Source of the DNA: Cytophagaceae bacterium
Lineage (GTDB): Bacteria > Bacteroidota > Bacteroidia > Cytophagales > Flexibacteraceae
Length of the DNA stretch: 64,000 bases
Direction: 5' to 3'
Assembly (NCBI GenBank): GCA_947458545.1
Contig: CANGYH010000001.1
Coordinates: 1 to 64,000, forward strand
The position numbers were made by a program, and so were the translations under genes. The notes beneath the pieces were generated by a model. The model was given only the letters and a program-made list of their open reading frames with translations, did not search any database and was not told the origin of the DNA. The stretch's first letter is position 1; each line of letters begins with the position of its first letter. Below, one piece after another: positions 42,728-58,934 of the stretch.

Positions 42728-43168
42728 GAAAGCTCCCGCCCCGATAAGCCGGGTTCTGTCGGGCCTGTTGCCAGGCCGTCCCATCATTTATCTAGGCGCA
42801 TCGTCGCCGATGCGCTCGTCAGCAGCCTACCCGCTCCGCGAGCCTGCCGGCCTGCCTTTGGGCAGAGGCGCGGCATAGGTACGGGCCGTACCTAACCCGG
42901 AGCATATTTGGCCTTGCAACCCGTGAGGTTTGCCAAGCTACACCGTTGCCGGTGCACTGGTGGGCTCTTACCCCGCCTTTTCAACCTTACCCCGGGGCCA
43001 CGTTGGCAGCCTGGTGGGGCGGTATATTTTCTGTTGCACTTTCTGTCGCTTTAGGCAGGCTTGGGCCTGCCTGCGCCTACCCGTTAGGTAGCACGGTGCC
43101 CTGCGTTGCCCAGACTTTCCTCTTCGGCCGCTGGGGCCAAAGCGATGGGATGGGGTTGGGGAGCTTTC
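42728..43168 (-). ncRNA. rnpB: RNase P RNA (bacterial type A)
   Basis: The catalytic RNA that matures tRNA 5' ends. On the minus strand the conserved parts are all present: GAGGAAAGTCTGGGCA near the 5' end, the ACAGAAAGTGCAACAGAAA core, AGATAAATGATGG near the 3' part and ACAGAACCCGGCTTA at the 3' end. P1 is set by GAAAGCTCCC (43168-43159) pairing perfectly with GGGAGCTTTC (42737-42728). A T run (TTTTTT on the minus strand) directly follows the 3' arm and serves as terminator. The length, about 441 nt, is on the long side. Confidence 0.95.
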
Positions 43169-46229: not shown

Positions 46230-46679
46230 CTATACCCCTGCCAGCAGCGATTTGGTCATCCGCCAGTGGCGGATGCCGTAGAAAGGGGCAATCTCCTCGT
46301 GCTGGGTATAGCCCAGGCGGCGGTAAAAGCCTACGGCCTGCTCGCGCGCGTTCAGGGTCAGATCGGTGTAGCCCTCTTCGGCAGCGAGCTGCTCCAGGTA
46401 GTTTAGTAGAAATGCTCCGATGCCCTGCCCTTGGGCCTCGGGCCGCACGGCCATAAAGCGCACCTGGGCCCAGCCCCCCTCAGCCCGCGCCTGCAGTTGG
46501 ACACAGCCCAGCGCCACGTCCTCCTCTGCCCAGACCAGGTGCCGCGTGCTGGGCAACCCATCGCTGGCATCCACCTCCGAGCCCGGCGGTAGCCCTAGCG
46601 GTGCCCGCAGCACGTCGTAGCGCACAGCCAGGTAGGCCTCATAAAAGGTATGCCCCGGGTAGGTAACAAAGGCAGGCAT
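46230..46679 (-). CDS. GNAT-family N-acetyltransferase
   Basis: A 149-residue acetyltransferase of the ElaA/YjcF-like GNAT group. The acetyl-CoA-binding motif A reads VRFMAVRPEAQGQGIGAFLLNYLEQLA; the C-terminal strand and helix include NAREQAVGFYRRLGYTQHEEIAPFYGIRHWRM. The substrate is unknown. Directly upstream of its ATG, with 7 nt between, lies an array of at least 13 heptanucleotide repeats, so its expression could depend on the array. Confidence 0.9.
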   Translation of the reverse strand: MPAFVTYPGHTFYEAYLAVRYDVLRAPLGLPPGSEVDASDGLPSTRHLVWAEEDVALGCVQLQARAEGGWAQVRFMAVRPEAQGQGIGAFLLNYLEQLAAEEGYTDLTLNAREQAVGFYRRLGYTQHEEIAPFYGIRHWRMTKSLLAGV

Positions 46680-46686
46680 AATCGGA

Positions 46687-46777
46687 GTTGAGAGTTGAAA
46701 GTTGAGCGTTGAGAGTTGAAAGTTGAAAGTTGAGAGTTGAAAGTTGAGAGTTGAAAGTTGAGAGTTGAAAGTTGAAA
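46687..46777 (-). repeat. Heptanucleotide array upstream of the GNAT gene
   Basis: Thirteen contiguous 7-bp units read GTTGAGA or GTTGAAA (one GTTGAGC) on the plus strand, followed by a degenerate unit. On the coding strand of the GNAT gene they read TCTCAAC/TTTCAAC and stop 7 nt before the ATG. The same unit recurs at 49023-49057 in front of another gene. Confidence 0.95.
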
Positions 46778-46799
46778 GTTAAGGGTGGCCGCTGGTCCC

Positions 46800-47153
46800 G
46801 GCCTCCGAAAGGAGGCCCAACTACACCTGCGCTGGTCCCGGTCTCCAGACCGGGACCCACCCAGCCAGTACCCCGCGGTCTCCAGACCGCTCAAACGGAG
46901 GGCATAGGGTACAGATAAGGGGCTATACAAAGCCTCCCACGCACCTGGTCCCGGTTTGCAACCGGGACCCACCCAAGGTTGCCGGTTTGCAACCGGCCAG
47001 AACGGCAATCGTGATGTAGGGGCGGACCCGCGTGTCCGCCCGCCCACGGATGGCTAACGGCTTGGATATTAGGAATTTTGCTACCCCGGCGTTTGCCGTG
47101 TTGACCCCAGGTTAAAAACCTGGGGCTACTGCTAAATGCGACGGCTAAAGCCG
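46800..47153. repeat. Intergenic island of stacked hairpin repeats (island 2)
   Basis: No gene in this stretch. Hairpins: 46800-46817 (GGCCTCC/GGAGGCC), 46834-46857 (GGTCCCGGTCT/AGACCGGGACC), 46875-46890 (GCGGTCT/AGACCGC), 46947-46969 (GGTCCCGGTT/AACCGGGACC), 46981-46997, 47020-47041 (GGGCGGAC/GTCCGCCC), 47105-47125 (CCCCAGGTT/AACCTGGGG) and 47142-47153. Read on the minus strand, the order and linkers match islands 1 and 3 closely, for example the GGGGTAnnGGCTG linker. The 47020-47041 unit resembles the GTAGGGGCG-type intergenic palindromes known from other bacteria. Confidence 0.85.
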
Positions 47154-47248
47154 AACGCTTTTCTCATTTGGCACAGATGAACCGCCCCACCATTTGCCCC
47201 AACCCCCACCGCCCCTTACCTTAGGGCCATACCCGCTCCTGCTATCCA

Positions 47249-48667
47249 ATGCGTGCCGTTGTTCTGTTTATCTTGGTCTGGGTCCTGGGGACGATTGGGC
47301 CGGCCGCTGCCCAGCAGGTACTCTGGCAACGCAGCTTTGGATGGCAACAAGAAGACGAGCTTCGAGATGTGGTGGATCTAGGGGACGGTACCTTTCTGGC
47401 CAGTGCGACAAGACGAAGCTTCGGTGGCGGCACGGCAAACACAAGGTCCGTCACGCTTCTGCGCTTTACGGCCTGGGGCGATACGATTTACTGCCGCTCG
47501 ACAGGCATGCAGGGTGCAACCGCCAGGCTCTGCCGCACTGCCAGTGGTAAGGTCTTTGTTACCAGCATCACGTCAGGCCTACTGGGTCCTCATCACCTGC
47601 TGGGCCGTGTTGATGTCGAAACCGGCCTGCTGGTCTGGCAAATGACCTTGCCTGCCTTCTACAACTGGGCACCGGGCATGTTTGCCTTCACGGAAGGCCC
47701 AAACGAGTCGCTACTTCTTTGTGGAGGCGGCATAGACTCGCTTGGCCTTGCCTCAAACGTGGGCTTTATAGTTCGCTACGACACGCTAGGCACACCCATC
47801 TGGGCTACCTATGTCCGCGAGCATTCGAGCTACACGCTCTTGAATCATGTGGAGATGACGGCCCAGGGCACCATTCTGGCCTCGGGTACGGCTGGCTCTC
47901 GAATCTTTGCCATTGAGTTTACAGAGGATGGCTCAGAACTCAGGCGAGCAACCTTCTACACCACACCTACACGCATCATCTTCGACCAGGGTGCCTGCGT
48001 GAGGCAGGCACCGGGCGACAGATACGTTGTTTCTGGCACAACGCAAGCCACACCAACACGCCGCTACCTAGGCCTGCACCAAGGCTGGGCTGGTCCTGCC
48101 GTGTGGGGCTTTGAGCGAGAAGATTTCGATTGCCGCCTCAAGCCGCAGGTCAATCAGGACGTCTCGATGGTGTATATGACTTCGATCGATCCCTTTTTTA
48201 GACTCAACCGACGAAGGTCAGACAGCTCCATGGCCTGGTCTGTGGATATTACCAGCACAATAGGCCAGCTGGCTACTTATCTAAACGATTTTTCCTACTT
48301 ACCAGATTCTTCGGCCATCGCGGTTGGTCGAGCCTTTTTTAATTCTACCCAGCGTGATTTCTACCTGGCCCGCATCACAAACATGGGCCAGCCCTACCGC
48401 CCCTGGCAACCTGCCACTGCCACCAAGGCCAAGGCAAGCCAGCCTGCCCCGAGGCCCTACCCCAACCCTTGCAGCGGCACACTGCACTTTGCGGGCCTTG
48501 CCGCCCCTGGCCAGCTAAAGCTTTATGGCACCGACGGCAGGGTGCATCTGAGCCAGAATCTTGCACCGGGCCAGGCAGTGGATGTGTCGGCTTTGCCGCC
48601 TGGGGTGTATGGATATGTGCTTACGGGCCAGGGAAAGGTTTGGCGTGGGCGGGTGGTGAAGAGATAA
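47249..48667 (+). CDS. Secreted protein with T9SS type-A C-terminal sorting domain
   Basis: A 472-residue exported protein. Signal peptide about 1-21 (LFILVWVLGTIGPAAAQ). The main part is built of beta-propeller-like repeats with WQRSFGWQQEDELRDVVDLGDGTFLASA as the first blade. The last about 70 residues are a Por_Secre_tail domain: PYPNPCSGTLHFAGL, VDVSALPPGVYGYVLTGQGKVWRGRVVKR. So it is predicted to cross the outer membrane by T9SS. Function unknown. The 3' end, including the stop codon, lies inside a GATAAAA heptanucleotide array, and repeat islands flank the gene on both sides. Confidence 0.88.
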   Translation: MRAVVLFILVWVLGTIGPAAAQQVLWQRSFGWQQEDELRDVVDLGDGTFLASATRRSFGGGTANTRSVTLLRFTAWGDTIYCRSTGMQGATARLCRTASGKVFVTSITSGLLGPHHLLGRVDVETGLLVWQMTLPAFYNWAPGMFAFTEGPNESLLLCGGGIDSLGLASNVGFIVRYDTLGTPIWATYVREHSSYTLLNHVEMTAQGTILASGTAGSRIFAIEFTEDGSELRRATFYTTPTRIIFDQGACVRQAPGDRYVVSGTTQATPTRRYLGLHQGWAGPAVWGFEREDFDCRLKPQVNQDVSMVYMTSIDPFFRLNRRRSDSSMAWSVDITSTIGQLATYLNDFSYLPDSSAIAVGRAFFNSTQRDFYLARITNMGQPYRPWQPATATKAKASQPAPRPYPNPCSGTLHFAGLAAPGQLKLYGTDGRVHLSQNLAPGQAVDVSALPPGVYGYVLTGQGKVWRGRVVKR

Positions 48668-48697
48668 AAGATAAAAGATAAAAGATAAAAGATAAAA
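48663..48697 (+). repeat. Heptanucleotide array over the stop codon of the T9SS type-A gene
   Basis: Five exact units of GATAAAA. The first contains the TAA stop (48665-48667), and further in-frame and out-of-frame TAA triplets follow. Confidence 0.95.
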
Positions 48698-48877
48698 CAT
48701 AGGCTCAAGGTACAAATACGGCTTATGAGATGGACAAGGGTCTATCTTACTGGCGTGGTGGTGCATCCAACGTTTACCGAATGGTTCATTCGACAAACGC
48801 CCGACAGAAGGGCCGACATTTCCCGACAAAAACCGCTTGTAACACCCTCATAATCAGCAAAAAAGCGGCGGGCGGCT

Positions 48878-49014
48878 TCAGCCGTCGGTATACTAGTAGC
48901 CCCACGGCTTCAGCCTGGGGCGGCCCCAACCTAACCCACCCCCACACCCTCCGTTTCAGCGGTCTGGAGACCGCGGGGTAACGGCTGCCTAGGTCCCGGT
49001 CAGAGACCGGTACC
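48878..49014. repeat. Intergenic island of stacked hairpin repeats (island 3)
   Basis: Holds 48900-48920, which differs from 18727-18747 at one base in 21, then the shared core at 48954-49014: GCGGTCT-GG-AGACCGC (48959-48974) and GGTCCCGGTC-AGA-GACCGGTACC (48992-49014, one mismatch). It leads into the AACTCTC array and the sensor kinase. The rest of the gap from 48698 to 48877 shows no supported gene. Confidence 0.85.
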
Positions 49015-49022
49015 AGAGGCGT

Positions 49023-49057
49023 AACTCTCAACTCTCAACTCTCAACTTTCAACTCTA
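49023..49057 (+). repeat. Heptanucleotide array upstream of the cNMP-domain kinase
   Basis: Five units: AACTCTC three times, AACTTTC, AACTCTA. They end 5 nt before the ATG at 49063. Same unit and same orientation relative to the gene as the array before the GNAT gene. Confidence 0.95.
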
Positions 49058-49062
49058 ACGTT

Positions 49063-50466
49063 ATGCTTGAGCTTTTCCCCGCCTTGGCTGATGTGCCTGA
49101 GCGCGCCGCCGCAGAGGCCTGGCTGCTGGCCCATGCCGAACGTTTGGAGCTGGCGCCGGGCCAAGCCCTCATGGTAGAGGGCGAGCCCATAGACTATATG
49201 TACCTGGTGCTGGCCGGCGAGCTGGAGCTGCTCTTGCAGCACCAGTCTGACCGCAAGCTGCACCTGCAGGGCGTGCTGGGGCCAGGGGCCATCACGGGGG
49301 TGTTGCCCTATAGCCGGCTGCGGACGGCCTCGGGCCGGGCTACGGCGCGGACGCCGGTCGTGCTGCTGCGCCTGCACCGAGACCGGTTCAGGCCGTTGAT
49401 CGTCGAGCAGCCCGCCTTGGCCGAGGCGCTGGTGCACCAGCTCACCAACCGCGTGCGTGACTTTATCCGGCAAGACGTGCAGGCCGAAAAGCTGACCGCC
49501 CTCGGGCAGATGGCTGCCACGCTGGCCCACGAGCTCAACAACCCGGCGGCAGCCTTGGGTAGCCTGGCCCAGGCCCTGCAGCGGCGGCTGGCCGCGCTGG
49601 GCCCGGCCTTGTGCTGCTTGCCTGGCTCCGGGGCCGTGGGCCACGGACTAGAGGCCTGGCCCGCGCCCCCGGCCGCCCCACCCACCGGGCTGGCCAAGGC
49701 CCGGGCACGCCAGGCCCTGGAAGACTACCTGGCCGAAGACCTCGGCCTGGACCCAGACCTGGCCACCGACTTGGTAGATGCCGGCTACCAACGCGCCGAC
49801 GTGGAGCAGGCCACGGCCGGCCTGGCCGCCCCAGAGGCAGCCTGCGTGCTGGCCCTGCAAGGGCAGCTGCTGGCCCTGCAAAACCTGGCCCAAGACATGG
49901 CCGCCGCCGCCGGGCGCATCAGCGGCCTGGTGCACGATGTGAAGAGCTTTACCCACATGGACCAGGCCCAAGACCTGCAACCCCTAGACGTGGATGCCAA
50001 CCTGGCCACGGCCGTGCGGCTGCTGCAGCCTAAGTTTCGGCAAGCAGGCGTACGGTTAGACAACCAGGTGCCCCACGATTTGCCCTGGGCCCAGGGCCCG
50101 CCCGGTGCCTTGAGCCAGGTATGGACCAACCTGTTAGACAATGCCCTCTACGCGGCGCTGCAAACGGCAGCCCCGCCCCCACAGGTACGCATAGAAGGGG
50201 GCACCACCGGCACCACCGTCTGGATACGCATCACCGACAACGGCCCGGGCATAGCCGAGGCAGACCTGCCCCGGATCTTTGAGCCCTTTTTTACCACCAA
50301 ACCGGTGGGCGAGGGTACCGGCCTTGGCCTGGAGCTGGTGCGGCGGGTGGCACAACTGGCCGGCGGCGATGTGCAGGTAGCCTCCGTGCCGGGCCAAACG
50401 ACCTTTACCGTGGTATTGCCCGTGCTAGAAACACAAAGCCCAGGCAGCAGGCCTGGGCTTGGGTAG
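49063..50466 (+). CDS. Soluble sensor histidine kinase with cyclic-nucleotide-binding-like domain
   Basis: A 467-residue cytoplasmic kinase. The N-terminal about 135 residues match a Crp-type beta-roll (APGQALMVEGEPIDYMYLVLAGELELL). The H box is AEKLTALGQMAATLAHELNNP (His156). A long Ala-rich helical insert (about 175-290) separates it from the ATPase domain with N box (WTNLLDNALYAAL), G1 (DNGPGI), F box (IFEPFFTTKP) and G2 (GTGLGLELV). No TM helices. It may respond to a nucleotide ligand or only use the fold. The nearest receiver genes are far away, so its partner is unknown. The array upstream may affect expression. Confidence 0.88.
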   Translation: MLELFPALADVPERAAAEAWLLAHAERLELAPGQALMVEGEPIDYMYLVLAGELELLLQHQSDRKLHLQGVLGPGAITGVLPYSRLRTASGRATARTPVVLLRLHRDRFRPLIVEQPALAEALVHQLTNRVRDFIRQDVQAEKLTALGQMAATLAHELNNPAAALGSLAQALQRRLAALGPALCCLPGSGAVGHGLEAWPAPPAAPPTGLAKARARQALEDYLAEDLGLDPDLATDLVDAGYQRADVEQATAGLAAPEAACVLALQGQLLALQNLAQDMAAAAGRISGLVHDVKSFTHMDQAQDLQPLDVDANLATAVRLLQPKFRQAGVRLDNQVPHDLPWAQGPPGALSQVWTNLLDNALYAALQTAAPPPQVRIEGGTTGTTVWIRITDNGPGIAEADLPRIFEPFFTTKPVGEGTGLGLELVRRVAQLAGGDVQVASVPGQTTFTVVLPVLETQSPGSRPGLG

Positions 50467-58863: not shown

Positions 58864-58934
58864 GGTTCCGTGACCGAGTGGCTAGGTAGAGCTCTGCAAA
58901 AGCTCCTACAGCGGTTCGAATCCGCTCGGAACCT
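58864..58934 (+). tRNA. tRNA-Cys (GCA)
   Basis: A complete 71-nt cloverleaf. The acceptor GGTTCCG pairs with CGGAACC. The anticodon stem-loop is GAGCT-CTGCAAA-AGCTC with anticodon GCA, and the T arm is AGCGGTTCGAATCCGCT. The discriminator is T and no CCA is encoded. A terminator follows directly. Confidence 0.96.

Follow-up and report, generated by a model that had tools for sequence, protein, structure and literature searches.

The closest known kind of element to the one described here is the TAACTGA heptamer array, which stands before start codons in marine Beggiatoaceae, some Cyanobacteria and Bacteroidetes (MacGregor 2015, PMC4679880). That paper suggests a translational role for the arrays, and its two passages that mention promoters deal with Moraxella repeats and with ribosomal operons. 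Heptamers are also found in the promoter regions of hmw1A and hmw2A of Haemophilus influenzae, where more copies of the (ATCTTTC)n repeat lead to lower expression (PMC8262952), and the Bacteroidota sigma-ABfr promoter is described as having TTTG at -33 and TAnnTTTG at -7 (PMC6847099, PMC7366714, PMC9723704). We describe here arrays of the heptamer AACTYTC (AACTTTC or AACTCTC) in a stretch of 64,000 nucleotides (nt) from a Cytophagaceae bacterium of the Bacteroidota (positions 1 to 64,000 of contig CANGYH010000001.1, assembly GCA_947458545.1; hereafter the window), and in its whole genome of 3.23 Mb on 9 contigs. Most of these arrays stand shortly before a start codon, and we tentatively read them as a constitutive upstream part of promoters, a fixed context and not a switch, a function that we infer from sequence. 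No description of AACTYTC arrays was found in the open-licence literature searched.

The window holds two such arrays, each in front of a gene:

46685..46780, minus strand: AACTYTC array of 13.7 units preceding the GNAT gene (unit pattern TTCTCTCTTCxTC)
46230..46679, minus strand: gene for a GNAT-family N-acetyltransferase of 149 amino acids (PF00583 above cut-off)
49023..49057, plus strand: AACTYTC array of 5 units preceding the kinase gene (unit pattern CCCTx)
49063..50466, plus strand: gene for a sensor kinase of 467 amino acids (cNMP-binding domain at 29-113, HATPase_c at 349-454)

An initial annotation had placed arrays of 13 and 5 units directly before these two genes, and this observation was confirmed. 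Tandem Repeats Finder reported a period-7 array of 13.6 copies at 46686-46780 and another of 4.9 copies at 49023-49056, and a search of the window for two consecutive AACTYTC units with at most two mismatches gave 17 matches against 0.57 expected, a number reached in 0 of 100 shuffles. The gene names also held, as the GNAT, cNMP-binding and HATPase_c domains all scored above their Pfam cut-offs; HisKA was below its cut-off in the kinase, and the closest relatives of the GNAT protein share 38-43% identity with it. Both arrays have the same orientation relative to their own genes, as had been noted. Measured in the coding sense, the kinase array ends 4-5 nt before the ATG, in keeping with the gap given initially, while the gap of 7 nt given for the GNAT gene depends on where the array is cut (5 nt if a partial unit is counted, 10 nt if only whole units are).

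The paired placement in the window proved to be part of a genome-wide pattern. Three consecutive AACTYTC units were matched 83 times in the genome, and these matches merged into 32 arrays on contigs 1, 2, 4, 5, 7 and 9. The surroundings of all 32 arrays were taken, and genes and their starts were called with a home-made codon-usage script. Twenty-eight arrays face a start codon and four face a stop; 23 of the 32, including both window arrays, lie in the sense orientation within 60 nt of a start, against none in antisense (binomial p = 2.4e-7), and none lies inside an open reading frame (ORF). The arrays thus do prefer start codons, contrary to the outcome that the initial annotation had named as refuting its proposal. 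Twenty evenly spaced 20-kb stretches contained no array of two or more units. That the arrays arose by chance or as an assembly artefact is a practically negligible prospect, given the shuffles of the window and the spread of 32 arrays over six of the nine contigs.

Of 118 interior units, 113 are AACTTTC or AACTCTC, and variation is nearly confined to position 5 (56 units), with three changes elsewhere. T and C units occur together in every one of the 23 start-proximal arrays, none of which is uniform, compared with three uniform arrays among the remaining nine (p = 0.017), and exactly five units (35 nt) is the commonest length (12/23). Alternation of T and C units was reached or exceeded in only 16 of 5000 shuffles, and the exact unit pattern TCTCT is common to four loci. 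Because unit types and alternation are shared at unlinked loci, the sequences suggest that the arrays were spread by copying of a founder array rather than by slippage at each gene. The sense strand contains no ATG, GTG, TTG or stop codon, and the antisense strand has both TTG and TGA in each copy.

The initial annotation had further proposed that changes in array length by slippage could tune expression or make it phase-variable. Such contingency loci would resemble H. influenzae hmw1A, whose repeat is likewise a heptamer in a promoter region, differs from AACTTTC by one base and is known to lower expression (PMC8262952). The constructs described there carry 13-24 copies, between two promoters of an adhesin gene, and the copy number varies (PMC8262952), whereas the arrays here are short, of mixed units and located before unrelated genes. 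All 28 start-facing genes were scanned. Those named by NCBIfam cut-offs are valS, serS, lptB, sufC, rimM, panB, an RluA-family synthase gene, rlmD, a scoB-family gene, a nucleotide-sugar dehydrogenase gene, porU, sppA and a fumarylacetoacetase gene; the remainder were mostly below cut-off or unmatched. Several of these genes are normally essential. The 13.7 units before the GNAT gene and the presence of some envelope-related genes (porU, a sugar transferase, nucleotide-sugar genes) speak for phase variation, but the targets are not mainly surface or antigenic genes, since at least 8 of the 28 are housekeeping genes, against a few that are envelope-related, and no common function was visible among them. 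(PorU and a sorting domain of the type IX secretion system (T9SS) scored above cut-off in this genome, which, like its TAnnTTTG-type boxes, points to the Bacteroidota.) With valS, serS, sufC, lptB and rimM downstream, with mixed units in every start-proximal array, the uniform ones being confined to the other nine, and with five as the commonest count, tuning by slippage is unsupported and phase variation is disfavoured; we consider the latter very unlikely. The arrays have the look of a fixed promoter component, or of a repeat that the genome tolerates, more than that of an on/off switch.

The evidence for a promoter part comes from the sequence between the arrays and the starts. Straight after many arrays comes ACCTTTGC or a similar sequence, matching the Bacteroidota -7 box. 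Thirteen of the 32 arrays have NAnnTTTG in the 30 nt downstream of them and one has it on the opposite side (Fisher test, p = 5e-4; 0.026 expected per array); the strict form TAnnTTTG is found downstream of three and on the opposite side of none (0.004 expected per array). Between array and start, AnnTTTG is present in 15 of the 23 start-proximal arrays and the TTTG core in 17. For comparison, we used 199 array-free upstream regions from the sampled stretches and the window (a 464-kb sample), of which 58 contained the box (15/23 versus 58/199, p = 9e-4; opposite-strand control, 21/199). The box also ends 3-9 nt before the start more often where an array is present (11/15 versus 21/58, p = 0.018). 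Its A lies 4-5 nt past the last whole unit in 9 of the 15 cases and about one unit further in four more, and the phase from array to box is 4-5 modulo 7 in 12 of the 15. The leading T of the box is rarer in array promoters (4/15) than in the others (35/58; p = 0.04), as though an array made up for the weakness of the box. As a separate observation, the 21 of 58 array-free boxes that end 3-9 nt before the start suggest that many genes of this genome are leaderless, although leaderless mRNAs are reported to be rare in the phylum.

We propose, on this basis, that a genome-specific, dispersed heptamer repeat of mixed AACTTTC and AACTCTC units has settled mostly upstream in sigma-ABfr-type promoters. 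The array would lie at about -16 to -50, covering the expected -33 element, and would replace the -33 or upstream contact region as a constitutive promoter part, perhaps also spacing the core promoter away from hairpins that lie further upstream (described below). Most transcripts of arrayed genes would start at or near the ATG, leaving the array outside the mRNA: the box is placed at -12 to -5 in Flavobacterium psychrophilum (PMC9723704), so a box ending 4 nt before the ATG predicts a leaderless mRNA. Short leaders are reported to be rare in the phylum, with 3.7% of 5' untranslated regions below 10 nt in Bacteroides thetaiotaomicron and 5.5% leaderless mRNAs in F. psychrophilum (PMC6847099, PMC7366714, PMC9723704). 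A -7 box of the sigma-ABfr type stands after many arrays, and the proposed arrangement differs from that promoter in that the -33 site, where TTTG or TTG would be expected, is occupied by an array whose sense strand lacks TTG, and in that leaderless spacing seems common here. Two other relations between array and promoter were considered and rejected. The array is not a series of tandem -7 box copies (AACTTTC versus AACTTTG), as box and array are mostly 4-5 of 7 out of phase and are in register (phase 0) in just 1 of 15 cases, and the third unit does not appear to substitute for the -33 TTTG, as T units are not favoured there by eye.

A location of the arrays within 5' leaders is an alternative, in line with what has been proposed for TAACTGA. 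Transcription would then begin further upstream, and an unstructured array in the mRNA would recruit or free the ribosome in a phylum that lacks Shine-Dalgarno sequences. Both window arrays are indeed predicted to be unfolded (0 kcal/mol, DNA folding parameters) and end 4-10 nt before the ATG with no box between, and upstream adenines and low structure are reported to aid initiation in Flavobacterium johnsoniae (PMC6847099). In 15 of 23 cases, however, a -7 box separates the array from the start codon and would put the transcription start past the array, and we regard the leader explanation as rather improbable. The same position bears on the initial proposal that array length alters the leader or the spacing from promoter to start: with the box on the gene side, changes in length at those 15 arrays would spare both. 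For the two boxless arrays of the window, a place in an unstructured leader may apply instead of a promoter part. Taken as a whole, the interpretation given initially was partly supported. A near-box, TGCCTTTG, was seen by eye just inside the annotated GNAT start.

Compared with the TAACTGA arrays, those described here are likewise contiguous heptamers, mainly intergenic, mainly in the forward orientation and a few nt before starts, and they precede genes of varied function, some presumably essential, with one preferred heptamer per genome (PMC4679880). The unit differs, so AACTYTC arrays belong to the wider kind and stand outside the TAACTGA family; here a -7 box usually separates the array from the start, which probably leaves the array out of the mRNA; the unit count is centred on five, whereas TAACTGA arrays in the BOGUAY genome have 2-6 units, mostly 2-4 (PMC4679880); and many arrays here have hairpin islands upstream.

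Such an island had been noted on the upstream side of both window arrays:

46790..47000, minus strand: hairpin island, resembling repetitive extragenic palindromes (REP), upstream of the GNAT array, with AGCGGTCTGGAGACCGC at 46875-46891 and GGTCCCGG...CCGGGACC hairpins
48863..49016, plus strand: island of REP-like hairpins on the upstream side of the kinase array, with GTAGCCCC...GGGGC, AGCGGTCTGGAGACCGC at 48958-48974 and GGTCCCGGTCAGAGACCGG

Folding bore this out, as the two stretches folded contain strong hairpin clusters (DNA folding z of -5.1 and -3.7). The hairpin AGCGGTCTGGAGACCGC has 26 exact copies in the genome, 14 facing a start, 11 facing a stop and one at a contig end. By exact search, arrays accompany 8 of the 14 start-facing copies and 1 of the 11 stop-facing ones (p = 0.033), and when degenerate or variant arrays were added by eye, the first figure rose to 12 of 14 (p = 2e-4). 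For a second hairpin, GCGGGCTRCAGCCCGCGCTAC, with 23 copies, one of which has no called gene beyond it, arrays lie within 200 nt of 6 among the 13 copies that face a start and of 1 among the 9 that face a stop (p = 0.16), a weak contrast in the same direction; pooling both hairpins gave 14/27 versus 2/20 (p = 0.004), a count that some islands enter twice because they hold both. Because the stop-facing AGCGGTCTGGAGACCGC copies are mostly free of arrays, the array follows the side of the gene start and not the hairpin. The candidate explanation that the array is a module of the island was rejected, as 10 of the 11 stop-facing AGCGGTCTGGAGACCGC copies are without an array and since, for 10 of the 32 arrays, inspection by eye showed no island closer than about 220 nt. 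Two start-facing REP copies (L195 and L199) bear other short tandem words, a AACTTCTC octamer and a TCTCTTA heptamer, at the usual AACTYTC site; an octamer and a TCTCTTA array were among the variants added by eye.

The islands may belong to a system of REPs and REP-associated tyrosine transposases (RAYT). Eight matches to Y1_Tnp above cut-off were found in the genome, and island hairpins preceded by GTAG or GTGG stand beside two of these genes, as in REP/RAYT systems: one (L354, C1:1593790-1593987) is flanked on both sides by GTGGGTCCCGGTCAGAGACCGGGACC, and another (L353, C1:1638835-1639167) has GTAGCCCCACGGCTTTAGCCTGGGGC on its 5' side. At the other six Y1_Tnp loci, neither GTGGGTCCCGGTCAGAGACCGGGACC nor GTAGCCCCACGGCTTTAGCCTGGGGC was seen. 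The AACTYTC array differs in lying outside these hairpins and in accompanying the start-facing copies. The islands are thus REP/RAYT-like, and the array is a separate element tied to gene starts.

The arrays cluster in repeat-rich regions. Contig C1 from about 146 kb to 1277 kb, a span of 1.13 Mb, contains no arrays (3 of 20000 random placements) and neither of the two hairpins searched. The coding fraction was 0.89-0.94 in the nine sampled stretches of this array-free region and 0.61-0.94 in the other eleven. This grouping is what would be expected of a tolerated, functionless microsatellite that spreads by slippage, recombination or copying and persists where it is harmless, an explanation that we consider possible, though less probable than a promoter part. 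Orientation would then result from filtering by codon content: the sense strand, free of start and stop codons, would be tolerated before starts, and the antisense strand, with its TTG and TGA per copy, after stops. Upstream of a leaderless start, however, codon content should be irrelevant. Several hundred bases in the upstream islands would be equally harmless, yet in 9 of the 15 boxed cases the array stops 4-5 nt short of the box, with a near-constant phase, and the nearly array-free state of the stop-facing AGCGGTCTGGAGACCGC copies also speaks against a merely tolerated repeat.

At least 119 stretches with four consecutive AACTYTC units occur across many phyla. Among 83 arrays listed for other Bacteroidota, 14 are start-proximal in sense, 5 in antisense and 30 inside ORFs, and among 61 listed for other phyla the numbers are 9, 7 and 17; because these counts differ from ours, the placement described above is a trait of this genome and not of the heptamer. 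In 20 of the 83 and 17 of the 61, the array ends no more than 60 nt from a stop codon, as the microsatellite explanation would have it. In a sample of the class, three consecutive AACTYTC units occur in 17 of 295 genomes (our own counted) and a scrambled heptamer, about equally widespread, in 13 of 295 (p = 0.57); one scrambled heptamer was tried, and since AACTYTC reversed is a rotation of itself, a reversed-word control is uninformative. Spread of a special heptamer by horizontal transfer was rejected on the same comparison, because wide occurrence says little when the scrambled word is as common. The 58 relatives compared include no genome of the same genus; a single one of them carries an array, and this array faces a stop. 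At twenty loci of seven genomes (G162, G245, G137, G158, G159, G228 and G002), arrays are often beside stops or in long degenerate tracts; in G162, five of seven arrays end within 10 nt of a stop, and one array is followed by TACCTTTGtatATG. At L333, L335, L336, L338, L342 and L351, which are loci of other Bacteroidota, a stop codon often coincides with or adjoins the end of an array in the GARAGTT orientation, with a TGA per copy. The idea that relatives carry a different heptamer at the same site was also rejected: among 55 relative loci, period-7 runs at the threshold used were found only at the sufC locus of G010 (a single GAAACCT case), and the pattern is present in 1 of 11 family genomes, our own counted.

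Several observations weigh against our reading of the arrays as a promoter part. AnnTTTG is absent between array and start in 8 of the 23 start-proximal arrays, both window arrays included (two of the eight, L034 and L045, retain the TTTG core), and the full TAnnTTTG is present in only 4 of the 15 boxes. The phase classes were picked after the data had been seen, and the gene starts come from a home-made caller. No preference for a unit at the -33 position was seen by eye. The -33 motif is itself weak in this genome and was reportedly not detected in F. johnsoniae (PMC7366714), and little may be lost by its replacement. In other Bacteroidota, the box lies downstream of 7 arrays and on the other side of 7 among 82 listed (6 versus 3 for the strict form), and in other phyla the numbers are 0 and 6 of 60; support for the association of array and box beyond this genome is weak at best. 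In relatives, the 75 nt before panB contain a box in 5 of 21 cases and those before sufC in 6 of 19, with no common position, and an ancestral promoter at these sites is therefore unsupported.

Heptamer arrays before starts have previously been read as leader or translational elements, and the promoter box that follows 15 of the 23 arrays here shifts the question to the DNA. It raises the question of what contacts the -33 region of Bacteroidota promoters without TTTG, and the genome offers about 20 natural promoters that share a single defined upstream part. Many of these appear to be leaderless, in contrast to the reported rarity of leaderless mRNAs in the phylum. A bolder form of the proposal, which we think unlikely, is that the 35-nt array of five heptads is a mobile or copyable promoter part that has spread to about two dozen promoters, including housekeeping ones, and docked at a near-constant phase, 4-5 nt ahead of the -7 box. 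Replacing the -33 element, it would drive leaderless transcription from weak boxes and perhaps bind a dedicated regulator or RNA polymerase itself.

The window also contains a second heptamer array, AGATAAA, of about 5.7 units at 48662-48701, which begins at the stop codon of the gene for a T9SS-sorted protein (47249-48667). AAAAGAT arrays as a second family were rejected, as three consecutive units match one place only in the whole genome. Elsewhere in the window, a class A RNase P RNA lies at 42729-43161 on the minus strand and a tRNA at 58864-58934 on the plus strand.

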